This document shows positions 1-34,001 of a stretch of 44,186 bases of DNA, in pieces. A program made the translations under genes and the position numbers. Numbering within the stretch: position 1 is the first letter of the stretch; each line of letters starts with the position of its first letter. The notes beneath the pieces are model-generated. The model ran no database searches and was not told the DNA's origin. It worked only from the letters and a program-made list of their open reading frames with translations. Source of the stretch: Desulfobacterales bacterium (GTDB taxonomy: Bacteria; Desulfobacterota; Desulfobacteria; Desulfobacterales; UBA11574); NCBI GenBank assembly GCA_030145345.1, contig JAQYVT010000015.1:1-44186 (forward strand), read 5' to 3'.

Positions 1-1250
1 CGAATAGCAAGCGTGGGGTAAAAGAACTGTCTGAACATATGCTTAACCGTGTGCTCTTCCGTAACGTAGTTGCCACCGGGCCCCACGTTTTCGATGATGT
101 CAACGGCGAGGGTTTCTTTGTCTACGTCAACGCCGCTGATCAATCGGTGGACCATCCCCAGGATCTCATTGTCAATGATGAATTGTTCGTAAGAGATCGA
201 ATTGCCGGAATCCAGGATTCCGGCGGCCAGATGAACATAATCGGCCCCGGCCATTGCGACCAGCAAATAAGAAACGCCTTTTTCAAAACCTGATTGAATA
301 TCGGGGATTTTGGCATCCGTCACTCCTGCAGATGCATAAATCGGCAGGTTGTAACGTTTTGCCAAATGGACGGCGCAGGCATTCAACATGGCGGTTTCAA
401 CCGAGCCCATGGTAAGATCCATGGTACGCAGGTCCATAGCGGTTGGAACGGCGCCGTACAGCACCCGGGCGCCGGGACTAAATACTTGAGCAATTGCAAC
501 GCCTGCCAAGGCCTCCGCATGCAACTGGGCAAGGGTGCCCGCCAGGGTCGCCGGAGAGGTAGCGCCTGCAATGGGCGCCGGGGCACAGGTGGTCGGAATG
601 CCGTTTAAGGCACAAAACTCTAGTATTTTAAGTGTGTTGGCATCTAAGGTGAGCGGGCTTATAGGATTGGTGATCATGGAAACAAAAGGGCGTTCTTTTA
701 GCTGTTTTTCCCCGCCTGCCATGAAACTGGCCAGTTGCCACAATTGCCGAACACCCTCGATCGTATCACACCCCCCCATGACATGCTTGGTGGTATTGCT
801 GAAGGCATGAAAAAAATCATTCAGATGATAGAACTCGGGGTTCAGATCGTGGGCCTGACAGGCAATAATATAAAATCGGATGTTGTCGAGACGATCGACA
901 AGATGTGCGGTGTTGATCACGTCTTTTAGGATGGTCGGGCGGTACCCCCCGGTGCCCATATCCAGAATCTGAAACACACGGCCGCCATTTCCAAAATAAA
1001 CATTGCCCGATCCAAGGTGCAGATCATTTTTACCGTCGCGGGAGTAGAGGGTGAATTGCTTCGGGGCCTTTGCAATCACTTTGTCAAGCCACCTTCCGGA
1101 AAAACAGGCCCGATCAGCCTTGACATCGACTCTGGCTCCGGCAATCTTGAGCATCTTTAGGGTGTGGCGGTCGAGTATCTTAACCCCCACGCGTTTTAGT
1201 ATTCTGCGTCCGGCCCGGTCGATTTTGTCGATTTCAGCGATAGTAAGCAA
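1..1250 (-). CDS. MttB-superfamily corrinoid methyltransferase, 3' end outside window
   Basis: The minus-strand frame is open from about 1250 to the window edge (416 codons) and contains no stop, so the C-terminus is missing. It aligns throughout with the MttB-like proteins at 1268-2719 and 10778-12238: HxMGG-type segment (HVMGGCDTIEGVR), YGAVPTAMDLRTMD, YNLPIYASAGVTDAKIPD and FIIDNEILGMV. The family transfers a methyl group from a quaternary or tertiary amine to a corrinoid protein. No in-frame TAG is seen, so this is a non-pyrrolysine member (the MtgB group of betaine demethylases) rather than trimethylamine MttB. No ATG lies near the expected start. I chose TTG at 1248-1250, preceded by AGAGG about ten bases upstream, although similarity (FKLL) continues slightly further upstream, so a rare start there is possible. 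It follows the previous MttB by 17 bases, so the two are co-transcribed. The substrate cannot be told from sequence. Confidence 0.85.
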   Translation of the reverse strand, partial: MLTIAEIDKIDRAGRRILKRVGVKILDRHTLKMLKIAGARVDVKADRACFSGRWLDKVIAKAPKQFTLYSRDGKNDLHLGSGNVYFGNGGRVFQILDMGTGGYRPTILKDVINTAHLVDRLDNIRFYIIACQAHDLNPEFYHLNDFFHAFSNTTKHVMGGCDTIEGVRQLWQLASFMAGGEKQLKERPFVSMITNPISPLTLDANTLKILEFCALNGIPTTCAPAPIAGATSPATLAGTLAQLHAEALAGVAIAQVFSPGARVLYGAVPTAMDLRTMDLTMGSVETAMLNACAVHLAKRYNLPIYASAGVTDAKIPDIQSGFEKGVSYLLVAMAGADYVHLAAGILDSGNSISYEQFIIDNEILGMVHRLISGVDVDKETLAVDIIENVGPGGNYVTEEHTVKHMFRQFFYPTLAI

Positions 1251-10777: not shown

Positions 10778-12238
10778 TTACATTATGCCCTCTTGCAGCC
10801 CGGGGATCTCCTTGCGGATCTCGGTGCGTATTTCAGAAGAAAGAATAGGTATTTCAGGCTTTGCCAGAATTTCTCCGACTATTTCTGTCGCTCGAGCCCG
10901 GGCTGATTTGGCACCGTCTCTTTCCCAGTCTTGCCGGTTATTCCTGTCACTGAGCTGAGGCTGATACAGTTCGGTGCGCATAAATTTGCGCGTATGGCGG
11001 TTGGAAACAAAATGGCCGCCCGGCCCCGCTTTCTTCAAAACATCGAAAGCCAGGGTTTCATCGTTTACCTGGATTCCTTCCACAGCCCGCATAACCATCC
11101 CTATGATTTCATTGTCTATTACCAGTTTGTCGTATGAGGCGGTCATGCAAAACTCAATAAAACCGGCGGCGTCATGAATAAAGTTGCCGCCGGCCAGCGC
11201 CACCATTAAACCGGTCAATGCCGATTCATAGCCGGCCTGGGTATCATTGGTTTTGGCATCAGACATGCCGGCTGTGGAATACAAGGGAAGGTTGTAAAAG
11301 CGGGCCATCTGGGCTGCAGCGGCATTCAGCAGGCCCATTTCCACGGCGCCTGATAAGTACTTCATGTCACGCATATCGGTAATCGAAGCGACACTCCCGT
11401 ATAATACCGGAGTGCCCGGGTTAACCAATTGGGTGAGCATCACACCGATTAGCGTATCCACGTTCAGCACGACCAGATTGCCGGCCAAGGTAATGGGGGC
11501 CGTCGCACCGCAAAGCGGCTCTGCCGGTACGACCACAGGTATACCGTGCTTTGCAACCTCCATGGCAAGCTGGCCATAGCTTTGATCAAGTTTAAAAGGA
11601 CTGATGTTGCATGCTACCATGGATATAAAGGGGCGCTTCTTTAGTTTTTCCGAAGAACCGGCGATGATTTCCGCCATTCTGATTACACTTCTGACCCCTT
11701 CGACCGTATAAACCCCGCCCATTATATGCTTGCGGGTATTGTTGAGAGCGGCGCCGAAGCGGTTAACATCTACATTCTCAACCGGCAGTTCGTTGGGGAA
11801 TACGTTGAGCATGTAAAAATGAATGTTGTCCAGGGCATCCACCAGGCGGGCCATGTTGACAATGTCTTCGAGTTTTGATCGCCGCGCATCGGTGCTGCCC
11901 GGATCTTGGACATTCAGGGCGGTTCCGCCGGTTCCCATATAAACATTGCTGCCGCCGATTTCACAGTCTAACTCACCATTATCAGCCCTTCCATAAAGGC
12001 GGACAACCGAAGGGGCCGATTCGATCAGTTTTGTAACCAGATCCGGATCGAACCTGGCAATTTTGGCGGCATCGTCGACATTGGCACCGGCTTGTTTAAA
12101 CAGTTCTAAGGCTTCCGGAAAATTCACCTGTATGCCGACTTCGGAAAAGATCCGCAGACTGGTTTTGTGTATTTTTATAATATCTTCATCGGCCAGAGGC
12201 TTGTACTGCCCCCCCGGCAAGCCTTTCCTCGTGATCAT
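10778..12238 (-). CDS. MttB-superfamily methyltransferase, likely betaine type
   Basis: This 486-residue protein opens with ITRKGLPGGQYKPLADEDI and then shows VYMGTGGTALNVQDP, NTRKHIMGGVYTVEGVRS, VPAEPLCGATAPITLAGN, VLYGSVASITDMRDMKY, YNLPLYSTAGMSDAKTND and FIEFCMTASYDKLVIDNEI. It is the copy most like non-pyrrolysine glycine betaine methyltransferases (MtgB group), judged from memory of the family and not from a search. The reaction would be betaine plus Co(I) corrinoid to dimethylglycine plus methylcorrinoid. No in-frame TAG. ATG follows AAGGAGGTGTAG, a very strong ribosome binding site. It is the second gene of the operon, after the reactivation-domain protein, and close to the osmolyte transporter, which supports a quaternary ammonium substrate. 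Confidence 0.9.
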   Translation of the reverse strand: MITRKGLPGGQYKPLADEDIIKIHKTSLRIFSEVGIQVNFPEALELFKQAGANVDDAAKIARFDPDLVTKLIESAPSVVRLYGRADNGELDCEIGGSNVYMGTGGTALNVQDPGSTDARRSKLEDIVNMARLVDALDNIHFYMLNVFPNELPVENVDVNRFGAALNNTRKHIMGGVYTVEGVRSVIRMAEIIAGSSEKLKKRPFISMVACNISPFKLDQSYGQLAMEVAKHGIPVVVPAEPLCGATAPITLAGNLVVLNVDTLIGVMLTQLVNPGTPVLYGSVASITDMRDMKYLSGAVEMGLLNAAAAQMARFYNLPLYSTAGMSDAKTNDTQAGYESALTGLMVALAGGNFIHDAAGFIEFCMTASYDKLVIDNEIIGMVMRAVEGIQVNDETLAFDVLKKAGPGGHFVSNRHTRKFMRTELYQPQLSDRNNRQDWERDGAKSARARATEIVGEILAKPEIPILSSEIRTEIRKEIPGLQEGIM

Positions 12239-16398: not shown

Positions 16399-17622
16399 TC
16401 ATAAGATCAGACAATCGGCCACCAGCTCCCACAGGTATTTCACCTCAAGATCTTCAAAATCGTATTCTGATTTCACATTATTAAACTGACCGTGGCAACT
16501 GTGGCAGGGAACCACAATCATCTTTGCCCCTGTGGCCCTGATCTGGTCGATCTTTTTTCTGGCATAAAAAACACGCTCATCGTTATACCCGGTTGTAAGG
16601 GTTCCGCCGCCCCCGCCGCAGCAGATTTGGTCCATTCTGTTGGGGTAGAGATCCACCCACATCTCCATACACTGATCCATAATCCATCGCGGCTCCTCAA
16701 AAAAACCGTGACCAAAACACTTTTCGGCCTTTCTGCCGTAATTGCACGGATCATGATAGGCGGCGAGTTCTGTATACTTTGTTCTGTCCAGTTTAATGCG
16801 ACCTTCTTTAATATATTTTATCAGCAGGTCAAAAACCGTGATAAATCCGAACTGATTCAATGCTTCAGGGTAATATTTTTCAAGACCCGACCGGGTCGCA
16901 AGGTAGGCATGGCCTCATTCCGGCCAGAGAAGGTTTTTGACTTGAAGCTTTTCCATCTGCTGCACAATCCGGCCGGCCATGACCTTCATGGCCTCTTCAT
17001 CGCCCGTAAAGTATCCCCATGAGGTTCCTTCCCAGTTTTCAGACGTTACGGTCCAGTCTTCCTGGGCCGCATGAAAAATTTTCCACCAGTGTTTTAAATC
17101 TTCGGTGTGCGTATTGACCAGTTTGTTATGGATGGTGGTTAAAAGATTCGCTCCTTTTTTGTCCACAGGTGCTTTGAATCCTTCAAATCCCGGTTCTTCT
17201 GCCACCTCTTCGGCGACATCCTCGATGATAAAAATAAAGTCTTCCTTGGGCAGGCGAAGATTGTTGCCGGTCTCCAATGCGGCCGCAAGACCTTTATGAA
17301 GAATCCCCGGGACCTTTTCGCGATCTCTTAGGGATCGGATTTTTCTGACCAAATCGGCGATGTCGATCTCCATGGGGCAAACATTTTCGCATTTGCCGCA
17401 CATGGTGCATATCCACGGCCACCGAGCGTCTATCAGTTCCTCAACCAGTCCCAGTGAAACCATCCGGACCAGCATACGGGGATCAAATCCGTCTATTCCG
17501 GAAGCGGGGCAGGAACTGGCACACAGCGCGCACGTAACACAATAATCCTGCAAAAACGGCCAGGATCGGCATCTCCCGTGATCGAGTTGATCCATATCGG
17601 TGATTTCAAATGGTGATGTCAT
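16399..17622 (-). CDS. HdrC-HdrB-like Fe-S oxidoreductase with in-frame UGA (probable selenoprotein)
   Basis: Conventional translation gives two pieces (17622-16915 and 16860-16399), but the frame is shared and open across a single UGA at 16915-16917. Read as Sec the product has 407 residues with U236 in PE-U-GHAYLATRSGLEK. The N-terminus is HdrC-like, with two [4Fe-4S] motifs (C28xxCxxCxxxCP and a second CxxCxxCxxxCP around 72-84). The C-terminus is HdrB/HdrD-like, with C293, CC at 334-335 and CxxC at 373-376, one CCG motif. U236 occupies the last Cys position of the preceding degenerate CCG unit. The paralogue at 32682-34001 has UGA at exactly the same place with similarity continuing after it. 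A hairpin lies 22 nt downstream. It is likely a cytoplasmic electron-transfer subunit working with the HdrA and MvhD-like proteins upstream. Confidence 0.85.
16884..16897 (-). promoter_or_regulatory. Candidate bacterial SECIS hairpin for the UGA at 16915
   Basis: On the minus strand GACCC-GGTC-GGGTC forms a perfect 5-bp stem whose apical loop begins 22 nt after the UGA. The loop GGUC is the same as that of the well-known E. coli fdhF element. Bacterial SECIS elements need a stem-loop 16-37 nt downstream with a G at the start of the loop, and this fits. Confidence 0.65.
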
Positions 17623-17708: not shown

Positions 17709-19328
17709 CTATTGATTCTTCTTAAGCCGACTGGGGCCGAGTTCTATGATATTGGCTTCAAAGCGGCTTACCATCTCTGCAAATTCCGTTCCCATATTGG
17801 AGGCAAGGGTTTGTACGGCAAGTCGTTCTTTTTCAAATCCGATTTGCAAAAACATATCGGTTATCTGCGCTACGGTTTGCTTTGCAAAAGTATTGCCCTG
17901 TTCTGAATGACAGTTCCCCTCATGGCATGTCAAGACCATAACACCGTCCGCATTCCTTTTAAAGGCCGCAAAGATATGATTGAAAGAAATACTGCCCGAG
18001 CAGGGCACTTCGATCACTTTAAGTCCCGGTGGTAGTTTATGACCCATGCACAGCGACAGTTCACCGGCCTGGACCGCCGAGCGGCTGCAGCAGAAGGCCA
18101 CCAAAAAGGGGGTAAAGGCAGCGTCTTCTCGGGGGGTATCCCCTGTGGTCATCTGTTTTGAAATTGACGCCGGCTCAAGGTCTTTTATATGAATAGCACC
18201 CCTCGGACATTGGGCGGCACATATGCCGCATCTTTCGCAGGCATGGGGTTCAACGACCACTCGTGTATTTAGCGTTATCGCCCGGTAGGGACAGCGGCGA
18301 TAGCAGGTCAGGCACCGTATGCACTGACCTTTGTCGATTTCCGCCCTGTTTTCCGGTACAGCCGCCAGGCCGGCCATAAGTAAAGCTGATGCAAGTGCAG
18401 CATTTCCGGCATCGACGATCTGGTCGTCACGCGCCTGGATAATCCTTGATGGGCCGGCGGTCATGATCCCTTTTCTGTTGGTAAATACAGTAAACCGATG
18501 AACATTATCCGCCTGTATGAATCCGTCAGGATCTGTATCGACCCCAAGTATTCTTGAAAGATCGGCAGCATAGTTAGACGGGACAACCGTTTCATCAACA
18601 ACGGTAATATCCGGTGTTAATCTGAATTTTTTGGAGGTTATTTCGTCGATAAATTCAATTTGAATGCTGCCGTCGCTTTCAGAATGAATTTCAGGGCGGG
18701 TGTCCGTGAACTTGATATAGACGACGCCTGCTTTTTTTGTTTCTCTGTGCAGGGCTTCCAAACCGTTTCCGGCCACCTTGAGATTGTTTGTCAGAATATA
18801 TGTCTTAAGGTTAAAATCTGATTGGAGCCTGAGGGCGGATTGCATAATTTCTTCTGCAATGACGGGATTGCTTTCTTGAAAAATCCCATTTAGGAAAGCC
18901 ACTTTTTTTACTTCTGGAAAAATGCCTGGGTCACGAGATGCATCGAGCAGCAATTCCGTCATCCGGAAGAGAGGGATGACATTGGAAGATGCTTTCAACC
19001 CGTATTGTGAAAAATTGGATTTCCGCTGATCTTCTTCAGCAATGATAACGCCGGCAACCCTTCGCGCAATCTCTTGGTTGTTCTGAGCTGCCAAAATCCT
19101 GAAATTTCCGGCCGAGCCACGGCATGAAACCAGTCTTGTGTCTGTCAGGATTTCGACTGATCCGGAATCGACCGATAAAGAGAAATGGAGCGTTTTATCC
19201 GGAGTTGCAATCACAAGATCTTTGCCCGCGGCCAGAAGATTTTCAGCAATACAATGGGCGCACGGTCCGTTTCCGAAAATTAATGTCTTATTGTTCAAAG
19301 GCGCCACCTTTTTAATGATGGTTTTCAA
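17709..19328 (-). CDS. QmoB/HdrA-related protein fused to ferredoxin and MvhD domains
   Basis: This 539-residue protein starts at a TTG (19326-19328), six bases after the HdrA gene stop; the start is uncertain and a GTG seven codons on is an alternative. Residues 1-320 look like a divergent flavoprotein-type domain (TLIFGNGPCAHCIAENLLAAG; FTVFTNRKGIMTAG). Then two [4Fe-4S] motifs follow, CIRCLTCYRRCPYRAI and CERCGICAAQCPRGAI. The last 140 residues are an MvhD/FlpD-like [2Fe-2S] module (FCCSRSAVQAGE, EVPCSGSISFNHI, CHEGNCHSEQG). The order matches QmoB, which links Hdr-like complexes to electron donors. It probably passes electrons between HdrA (19335-20579) and the HdrC-B fusion (16399-17622) in the cytoplasm. 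Confidence 0.85.
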   Translation of the reverse strand: MKTIIKKVAPLNNKTLIFGNGPCAHCIAENLLAAGKDLVIATPDKTLHFSLSVDSGSVEILTDTRLVSCRGSAGNFRILAAQNNQEIARRVAGVIIAEEDQRKSNFSQYGLKASSNVIPLFRMTELLLDASRDPGIFPEVKKVAFLNGIFQESNPVIAEEIMQSALRLQSDFNLKTYILTNNLKVAGNGLEALHRETKKAGVVYIKFTDTRPEIHSESDGSIQIEFIDEITSKKFRLTPDITVVDETVVPSNYAADLSRILGVDTDPDGFIQADNVHRFTVFTNRKGIMTAGPSRIIQARDDQIVDAGNAALASALLMAGLAAVPENRAEIDKGQCIRCLTCYRRCPYRAITLNTRVVVEPHACERCGICAAQCPRGAIHIKDLEPASISKQMTTGDTPREDAAFTPFLVAFCCSRSAVQAGELSLCMGHKLPPGLKVIEVPCSGSISFNHIFAAFKRNADGVMVLTCHEGNCHSEQGNTFAKQTVAQITDMFLQIGFEKERLAVQTLASNMGTEFAEMVSRFEANIIELGPSRLKKNQ

Positions 19329-19334
19329 ACCACT

Positions 19335-20579
19335 TCAGAAGCCATTCGGTTTGAGGTATTTCGCAATATCCCATGCCGCACGACCGGCACCGGCCATGGT
19401 TTCAGGGATGTTCATCGGCCCTTCGACGGTGCCGGCTGTAAAAACCCCGTTTTCAAAATCCGATGCTTCTTCGGTACCGGCTGACACAAATCCGGAATCA
19501 GCCAGTTTGAGATCGAGCATTCCCGCTAGTTCTCGGCTGTCTTTACACGGGGTAATTCCGATGGAAAGCACCAGCAGGTCGAAAATTTCCTCTAAGGTTT
19601 CGTGGGTACTGTTGTCTAAAAAGTTTATCTTCAGCTTTTGACTGTCCGTCTCGTAAATGTCGCCGGGAATCGCGCGTATCATCCGCACCGCTTCCTGAAC
19701 GTCTTTATAGAATTGTTCGAAGTCCTTTCCAAAAGTCTGGACATCGATATAGAAAAAAGAGATGTCAATGTCAGGCTGCCTTTCTTTGATCAGTCTTGCC
19801 ATGCGCAGCGCCGAACCGCAGCATACCTTCGAGCACCATAGATGATTCAGCTTGGAATCTCTGGAGCCGACACACTGGATAAAGGCGATTCGCTCGGGAG
19901 GTTTATTATCGCTCGGCGTTTTTACGCGTGCCGTCTGTTTTAGCATTCTTTCCAGGTCGAGCGTTGAAAGGACATTTTTAAAAAGACCATACCCGTATGG
20001 CTTGTCCACGGGACTAAACGGCTGGAATCCGGTGGCAACCAGGACGGCGTCTGCTTGGCTCACATATTTAGAATCTTTTTCATCCAGATTGATGGCCTTT
20101 TCCGGACATTCATCCCGGCAGATATGGCAAGATGTATCTTTGAGATAGAGACATTTTTCTGGGTTGATCCCATAAAAGGGGATATTGTTTTTTGAAAATC
20201 CGTTTAAAATCGCGCCGTCCGAAGGGCATCTGTCTGAACAAATAGCGCATTGATTGCACTTCTGGGAATCTATATACTGGGGTTTTTGGTGAATGTTTAC
20301 GGTGAATCGACCGTTTTTGGATATTTTTTGTACCTGACTGCCGATCAAAATCTTTATGTTTGGATGCGAAACCGCGTTTTTCAGTTTTTCTTCCACCATG
20401 CATGCGCCGCACTTTACGCAGGTATTCCGGGTTGCTTTACAGGCATACCCGATGGCATGCCCTCCCAGAAAGTCCGATTTTTCAACCAGTTCAACATGGA
20501 TACCTAAATTGGCGAGTTCAACCGATGCACAAAGACCGGCTACTCCGCCACCGATAATCAGAACATTTTTATCCGTCAT
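19335..20579 (-). CDS. HdrA/QmoA-like flavoprotein
   Basis: This 414-residue FAD protein opens with the dinucleotide-binding motif VLIIGGGVAGLCASVELA and the following FLGGHAIGYACKATRNTCVKCGAC. It then has two ferredoxin-like motifs (CNQCAICSDRCPSDGAI; CHICRDECPEKAI), an IAFIQCVGSRDSKLNHLWCSKVCCGSALR block typical of HdrA, and a C-terminal FAD segment (VFTAGTVEGPMNIPETMAGAG). Length matches the short QmoA type rather than full methanogen HdrA (about 650). It may bifurcate or simply relay electrons within the soluble complex with the two downstream proteins. ATG follows AAAGGGAGAGTC. Upstream is a 367-base region, so transcription probably begins there. Confidence 0.9.
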   Translation of the reverse strand: MTDKNVLIIGGGVAGLCASVELANLGIHVELVEKSDFLGGHAIGYACKATRNTCVKCGACMVEEKLKNAVSHPNIKILIGSQVQKISKNGRFTVNIHQKPQYIDSQKCNQCAICSDRCPSDGAILNGFSKNNIPFYGINPEKCLYLKDTSCHICRDECPEKAINLDEKDSKYVSQADAVLVATGFQPFSPVDKPYGYGLFKNVLSTLDLERMLKQTARVKTPSDNKPPERIAFIQCVGSRDSKLNHLWCSKVCCGSALRMARLIKERQPDIDISFFYIDVQTFGKDFEQFYKDVQEAVRMIRAIPGDIYETDSQKLKINFLDNSTHETLEEIFDLLVLSIGITPCKDSRELAGMLDLKLADSGFVSAGTEEASDFENGVFTAGTVEGPMNIPETMAGAGRAAWDIAKYLKPNGF

Positions 20580-32681: not shown

Positions 32682-34001
32682 CTACATCGCCGATTCCGGG
32701 TGAAAGACCAGAACGTCTTTGAGGTCATCTCCCAGGTATTCTCTTTCGTTTGGGCCGAGAATTCCCAGGGAAAGGCATATCAACGTCCACAAATGAACGG
32801 TCTGCCATGCATGCTCGCGCTGATCCGACAAATCATGAATTTGGGCATGGCAGTTGTGACAGGGCGCAATGCAATAATCGGCTTTTGTGGCCAGAATCTG
32901 GTCGGCTTTAAGCTGGCCGTACGCACGACGTGCATCGGTATATCCAGATTGAAGAAAACCGCCACCACCGCCGCAACAGTAGTTATTCGAACGGTTGGGA
33001 ATCATATCGATGAAATTCTCTTCACCCACGACCGATTTGACGATAAACCTCAAATCTTCCGCGATTGGATCGCCATAACTTTTTCGCACGATCTGGCATG
33101 GATCCTGAACCGTAAACTTGATCTTCAAATTTTTGTTCCAGTCTGAATTGACCTTCAGTCTTCCTTCCCGGATCCATTTGGCATAATATTCATAGATGTT
33201 CTTAACCTCAAAACTATGGTCAATGTTGAATTTTTTCAGTCCAGCCCGGACTGAGAACGTCACGTGACCTCACTCGGTATTGAGAAAGATTTTACAACCC
33301 AGGTCATCCGCCTGTTTGGCCGTGGTTCGGGTAATGTGTTCCCAGGCTTGGTCATCCGCCAGAAACATACAATAGTTTTCTGCCGCCCAGCCTTTATTGC
33401 CATAGGTCCAGTCTACACCCGCCCGGTGAAGAATCTTCCATAGCGGAACCAATTCGTCCGGTTCGGTCACCGGTTCTCTTGAATTCTGGTTCAAAAAGAA
33501 TTCGGCGCCCTGTTTGTCGATGGGCGCAGCCATATCCTTGAATTCCGGCTGAGCCTCCTGATATTCCTCGAGAACGTCTTCAACTACGAACTGGAAGTCC
33601 TCCTCGGACGTTCCCATGGCACTGCAACTGTCATTTCTCAAAGCCATGTCACAGGAGCCCAGGATACCCTTGGGACGCTCCTCCCTGGGCCAGGCTGCCC
33701 TGGCATTATAGACCAGCTGGGGAATGTCAATTTGCATGGGACAGACATAAATACACCGCTGACACAGAGTACACATCCATACCCAGGGAGTACTTAAAAT
33801 TTCTTTGTCCATGCCCAGGGCCGCCATCCTTAGAAACTTTCGAGGATCCATATCTTCCAGGCCGGTGGCCGGACATCCTGAAGAACAGGCACCACAGGTC
33901 AAACAGAGATTGAGATTTCCGCCTTCTGGAAGAAGTTCTTTTACCGTGTCTAAAAAGCCGCTTTTCTTTTTACCTTTGATGATAATGGGTTCTCCTGGCA
34001 T
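32682..34001 (-). CDS. HdrC-HdrB-like Fe-S oxidoreductase with in-frame UGA (probable selenoprotein)
   Basis: This is one frame across a UGA at 33270-33272; conventional calling splits it into 243- and 193-residue pieces. With Sec it has 439 residues and U244 in TE-U-GHVTFSVRAGLKK. The N-terminal HdrC-like part has CLTCGACSSGCPATG (about 33-45) and CTLCQRCIYVCPMQID (about 78-90). The C-terminal HdrB/D part has C302 in VQDPC, CC 342-343 and CHNC 381-384. It aligns with the protein at 16399-17622 on both sides of the UGA (E-U-GH, RxGLxK, IxEGRxK), which would not be expected of two unrelated genes. It is positioned as the HdrBC component of the MetFV-HdrA-MvhD set. A hairpin 22 nt after the UGA fits a SECIS. 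The natural end acceptor of the HdrBC site is unknown. Confidence 0.87.
33236..33254 (-). promoter_or_regulatory. Candidate bacterial SECIS hairpin for the UGA at 33270
   Basis: On the minus strand TCAGTCC-GGGCT-GGACTGA is a perfect 7-bp stem with a 5-base loop starting with G. The loop begins 22 nt after the UGA, the same spacing as in the paralogue at 16884-16897, although stem and loop sequences differ between the two. Conserved position with diverged sequence favours a selected structure. Confidence 0.65.

Follow-up and report, generated by a model that had tools for sequence, protein, structure and literature searches.

The question raised by this locus is whether an in-frame UGA codon interrupts a redox-enzyme gene or encodes selenocysteine (Sec) within it. 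In the stretch of DNA that we analyzed (the window; 44,186 nucleotides from a Desulfobacterales bacterium, contig JAQYVT010000015.1), plain ORF calling yields two separate ORFs on the minus strand, 16915..17622 and 16399..16860, which is how the initial annotation had expected automatic annotation to see two broken genes. Under the standard code, these ORFs share one frame and are linked by an in-frame UGA at 16917-16915. When this UGA is taken as a residue, the gene (16399..17622, minus strand) runs from an ATG at 17622-17620 to a terminal TGA stop at 16401-16399 and specifies 407 residues, with Sec at position 236 (U236) in the sequence NLLWPE-U-GHAYLATR. The initial annotation, which had joined the two fragments in this way, gave the right coordinates, and about 100 relatives retain this frame together with its UGA. 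Although a stop codon seems to split it, the gene is almost certainly intact, encoding an HdrC-HdrB (HdrD/DsrK-type) fusion with a Fer4 dicluster region and a CCG domain. Judged from sequence, UGA236 encodes Sec with a probability of roughly 97%. We regard the gene as a selenoprotein gene because the UGA is conserved, Cys homologues exist, SelA, SelB, SelC, and SelD are present, and a hairpin after the UGA covaries synonymously and has no counterpart in the Cys homologues. Thus, every check proposed in the initial annotation that was run supports its claim of a UGA-encoded Sec in an HdrC-HdrB fusion. Such UGA genes are broken in two by plain ORF calling, and counts of Hdr-type redox modules in sulfate reducers may consequently be wrong.

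The codon aligned with UGA236 is UGA in all 84 distinct relatives that share at least 58% identity with the window protein, and in 20 of 21 relatives at 49-58% identity, the exception (L108) having TTA (Leu). Codons are mixed among relatives at 40-49% identity (UGA, n = 8; Cys, n = 5), and more remote homologues carry a Cys codon there, TGC or TGT. In the UGA relatives, the protein is conserved on both flanks of this codon with no additional stop. Moreover, three Cys forms (L112, L153, and L154) are single, uninterrupted proteins containing the sequence PECGHAY, in which the Cys aligns with U236 as the selenoprotein reading had anticipated. The DsrK (GECGHMW), HmcF (TECGHAH), and TmcB-like (CECGTAF) proteins of the host genome also have Cys in the aligned column, and residue 236 is therefore the lone conserved cysteine of the DsrK/HmcF/TmcB class. 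All four Sec components that the initial annotation had proposed looking for are found in the same assembly: tRNA-Sec (SelC; 75.4 bits), SelB (384 bits), SelA (611 bits), and SelD (371 bits). We also scored SelB in 32 further genomes that carry the UGA gene: 30 exceed its cut-off, and the remaining two are incomplete drafts (88% and 91%). As a separator of Sec from Cys genomes SelB gives no contrast, the Cys-type genomes carrying it too. The host selD gene (L127, G000:C53:13941-14861) itself has one in-frame TGA, presumably like that of known Sec-containing SelD.

Downstream of the UGA lies a bSECIS-like hairpin (16880..16901, minus strand), with a core stem at 16897-16884 and a GGUC loop at 16892-16889. 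Numbered from the U of UGA, the stem comprises nt 21-25 paired with nt 30-34 and the loop nt 26-29, giving a UGA-to-loop gap of 22 nt. Bacterial SECIS hairpins are located about 16-37 nt after the UGA, with a G as the first loop nucleotide; in our own test of this geometry rule, the window hairpin has both the distance and the loop-initial G. The hairpin sits on codons for A-T-R-S-G-L, and three synonymous haplotypes rebuild the stem (AGG-NNT-GGT, CGG-NNG-GGT(C), and CGG-NNC-GGG, the last with its pairing shifted by one position). A perfect five-pair stem is present in 71 of 88 UGA sequences, compared to 20.5 ± 3.6 (maximum 32, 300 shuffles) when synonymous codons are shuffled within alignment columns, a procedure that ignores the relatedness of the sequences. 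The mean folding energy of the hairpin is -8.65, compared to -5.94 ± 0.20 in the synonymous shuffles. On one quick tree, parsimony reconstruction counts nine direct changes from one paired haplotype to another. When pairs are chosen in a tree-aware way on well-supported branches, only four independent ones are left; most go in the expected direction and none is clearly opposed, but with this number p cannot reach 0.05. Cys homologues L153 and L154 retain the residues ATRY with codons that lack the hairpin, which therefore tracks the UGA and not the protein. The hairpin is under selection independent of the protein; the GGUC-loop hairpin described in the initial annotation is thus confirmed, with synonymous covariation found in addition. 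An Rfam search of the genome and the window gave no match to the hairpin, a null result that is uninformative because the SECIS_1 model was also silent in all 14 control genomes. In L108 (L108:6658), the hairpin is retained although the codon is TTA (Leu), reflecting either Sec loss or an assembly error.

Three other readings of the UGA have to be weighed against these data. The two separate ORFs obtained by automatic calling are what a true stop would give, whether in a pseudogene or in a gene split by a sequencing error, but the in-frame UGA recurs in the 84 relatives and the 20 of 21 counted above with no other stop, third-position GC is alike on the 5′ and 3′ sides of the codon (0.55 and 0.53, respectively), and the CCG residues downstream are invariant. 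Because both halves are conserved across many genera, this explanation is refuted in effect, and we regard it as extremely improbable. Conserved halves might also be two deliberate polypeptides, an HdrC-like protein ending at the UGA and an HdrB-like protein restarting at TTG 16860; ORF 16399..16860 does have this possible start, and methanogens make HdrC and HdrB as two distinct proteins. Part of the highly conserved PE-U-GHAYLATR sequence, however, lies between the UGA and the putative restart, and so these residues must be translated. Together with the uninterrupted Cys forms L112, L153, and L154 and the bSECIS geometry of the hairpin, this makes separate translation very unlikely. Finally, any UGA suppressor would mend the frame by inserting another residue, such as Trp. 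Homologues, however, have Cys rather than Trp at this position, the terminal stop of the same gene is itself a UGA, and the genome has a complete Sec machinery; we give suppression almost no weight.

Reading UGA236 as Sec raises the issue of where this residue is located in the protein. The N-terminal part contains an HdrC-like region with two [4Fe-4S] ferredoxin motifs (residues 26-86; 17365..17547, minus strand), recognized by Pfam Fer4_8 / Fer4_17 and by similarity to HdrC in the PDB (E = 5e-13). The C-terminal CCG domain (residues 288-380; 16483..16761, minus strand; Pfam CCG, 46.5 bits) has the complete set of noncubane-cluster cysteines, C293, C334, C335, C373, and C376, which are invariant in the family alignment. 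The C-terminal CCG motif (Cx31-39CCx35-36CxxC) is the only complete one, the N-terminal Cys set having been lost except for U236. The initial annotation had placed Sec at a CCG-type cysteine position, which roughly holds in that U236 belongs to the HdrB-like domain, in its N-terminal half, which is degenerate, but the complete CCG motif is C-terminal and all of its residues are Cys. Sec236 replaces the lone Cys of the (E)CGH motif, which the host DsrK and HmcF have as well, opposite the one complete CCG site of the HdrB-like fold. That Sec occupies a conserved redox position of an HdrD/DsrK-type subunit is very probable.

An AlphaFold model (42 sequences) has an HdrB-like fold (pLDDT 90.3, pTM 0.89), with a Z of about 20-21 relative to HdrB over residues 158-408 and of 26.6 relative to EtfD over 366 residues. 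The HdrB part thus has a fold in common with HdrB of HdrABC-MvhAGD (PDB 5ODC) and mycobacterial EtfD (PDB 9OJN), although HdrB has two noncubane clusters, EtfD has one linear [3Fe-4S] and one noncubane cluster, and the window protein retains only Sec236 at the N-terminal site. The register of U236 relative to the N-terminal CxxC is ambiguous. Two lines of evidence point to the first Cys (HdrB Cys78, EtfD Cys581): HMMER aligns U236 with EtfD C581 and the near-invariant H238 with EtfD His583, and comparison of strand-Cys-helix spacing shows a helix beginning right after U236, like the first Cys of each CxxC in the HdrB model. The second Cys, HdrB Cys81, which is the bridging Cys displaced by substrate (PMC13083937), is favored instead by one forced alignment and by the CPE-U sequence of a few relatives. 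Alignment of the family to the host's own HdrB proteins using hhalign covers the C-terminal CCG only. In either register, U236 falls on the loop that in EtfD touches the other domain's noncubane cluster.

These placements suggest how the protein might function. SelB carrying Sec-tRNA, together with the bSECIS hairpin 17-30 nt downstream, would decode the UGA as Sec236, and the product would be one soluble 407-residue HdrC-HdrB fusion (HdrD/DsrK-type) acting as the terminal subunit of a flavin module encoded by the two upstream genes (QmoA/HdrA-like and QmoB/HdrA-MvhD-like). In this scheme, the C-terminal CCG domain, with its single noncubane [4Fe-4S] cluster, might receive electrons that start from an HdrA-type FAD and move across two cubane [4Fe-4S] clusters, and Sec236 would take the place of HdrB's other noncubane cluster. 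Because U236 in either register falls on the loop equivalent to this EtfD contact, we infer that the selenolate and this cluster may jointly cleave or form an S-S bond, as in a disulfide or trisulfide such as that of DsrC, or in a small thiol carrier. One cluster and one selenol would perhaps do what HdrB does with two clusters. We put direct participation of Sec in S-S chemistry with the cluster at even odds; the role suggested in the initial annotation, disulfide or persulfide chemistry or cluster ligation, is plausible.

Alternatively, Sec236 may not be a free nucleophile but may coordinate the noncubane cluster, either permanently or in a displaceable manner, as HdrB's bridging Cys does, or the site may only relay electrons, the role suggested for EtfD, whose clusters are fully ligated. 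Against this stands the general view that DsrK-type proteins reduce the DsrC disulfide or trisulfide. Support for a ligand or relay comes from the HMMER register, since EtfD His583, located in the matching C-P-H-C loop, ligates the noncubane cluster and makes it non-catalytic (PMC13083937). We consider this alternative a real contender that probably falls short. Returning to a catalytic selenolate, we tentatively propose, with more doubt than confidence, that one HdrB noncubane cluster has been replaced by a single selenol (Cys in DsrK and HmcF), that the S-S bond is shared between the selenolate and a single noncubane [4Fe-4S] cluster, and that UGH/CGH is the shared signature of a one-cluster class. 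The role of the lone (E)CGH cysteine in DsrK-type proteins is a core question in sulfate respiration, and if Sec does adjoin the noncubane cluster, the natural Sec/Cys pairs (U here; C in DsrK, HmcF, L112, L153, and L154) are test material for this cysteine.

Sec in an Fe-S oxidoreductase family with a UGH motif has already been published, and the window gene, which has UGH at the Sec site of a Fer4-CCG protein, belongs to that known kind. In 2006, selenoproteins of the Fe-S oxidoreductase-like (GlpC) type were described from Syntrophobacter fumaroxidans, Desulfotalea psychrophila, and Desulfovibrio vulgaris (PMC1794560), and a 2026 review gives UGH as the GlpC family motif while noting that most such selenoprotein families are functionally uncharacterised (PMC13188914). 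Likened by motif and description to this family (COG0247 / PTHR43551; reference protein WP_174406253.1), the window protein is likewise an Fe-S oxidoreductase that has Sec in U-G-H and comes from sulfate-reducing Desulfobacterota (PMC1794560, PMC9312934, PMC13188914). The 2006 Syntrophobacter examples, however, occur in a glpC-hdrA-frhD-frhG-frhA operon, whereas the window gene has QmoA-like and QmoB-like (HdrA + MvhD) partners and no hydrogenase. A Sec-containing HdrD4, also a soluble HdrC-HdrB fusion from a Desulfobacterota sulfate reducer, is described for Desulfobacterium autotrophicum HRM2 (PMC2702500), and the likeness is one of description. DsrK, HmcF, and TmcB share with the window protein the Fer4 region, a single complete CCG, and the lone ECG(H) Cys column that is Sec here, but they use Cys and reside in membrane complexes; the window protein scores below their NCBIfam equivalog cut-offs (140/400, 182/750, and 160/735 bits, respectively). 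What is added here is that the Sec site is the (E)CGH cysteine of DsrK/HmcF, that HdrA/Qmo-like partners are conserved, and that the hairpin covaries synonymously.

The two partner genes are located immediately upstream on the minus strand, encoding a QmoB-like protein (17709..19328; HdrA C-terminal half plus an MvhD/FlpD domain, FlpD 117.7 bits) and a QmoA-like/HdrA flavoprotein (19335..20579), for which HdrA2 is the best match (315 bits, below the 1100 cut-off). Both are conserved upstream in relatives, QmoA- and QmoB-like matches being found together in 55 of the 57 loci with enough flank, when HdrA-type cross-hits are counted. No membrane subunit gene is present beside them in the window ORF list, and the window protein matches qmoC, the membrane heme subunit, at 43/300 bits through its ferredoxin part alone. 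QmoAB-HdrD and QmoAB-HdrBC arrangements, which also combine QmoA-like, QmoB-like, and HdrCB-type genes without QmoC, are known in some Deltaproteobacteria; the part of that report available to us does not mention Sec for these complexes (PMC10504309). The initial annotation noted a neighbouring betaine demethylation locus; this holds for the window but not for the relatives. A search of the fetched flanks of the 57 loci found no mttB homologue; the betaine-methyltransferase genes therefore lie outside the conserved module, and we rejected an association of the selenoprotein with them. Rfam PYLIS_3 (pyrrolysine insertion, mttB) matches at 11167-11266 and 224-323 (minus strand) of the window fall inside MttB-family ORFs. 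These matches probably reflect homology of non-pyrrolysine MttB, not pyrrolysine, no in-frame UAG being seen in the part of these ORFs that was read.

Screening the partner genes for in-frame UGA gave mostly wrong-frame noise. Adjoining the UGA genes at L107:7366 and L111:7392, however, an HdrA-type frame shows NDCxMU, which we take to be the known Sec-HdrA motif, and these two loci would therefore have two neighbouring selenoprotein genes. The window itself contains a second UGA gene of the same superfamily (32682..34001, minus strand; UGA 33272-33270, TE-U-GHVTF), with the hairpin CAGUCCGGGCUGGACUG downstream of its UGA. Its product is about 36% identical to the window selenoprotein, its UGA is kept in many relatives, and its operon includes MetF-like, double HdrA, MvhD, and MetV-like genes. 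A third UGA paralogue, 60% identical to the window gene, is located elsewhere in the host genome (G000:C179:60848-62050).
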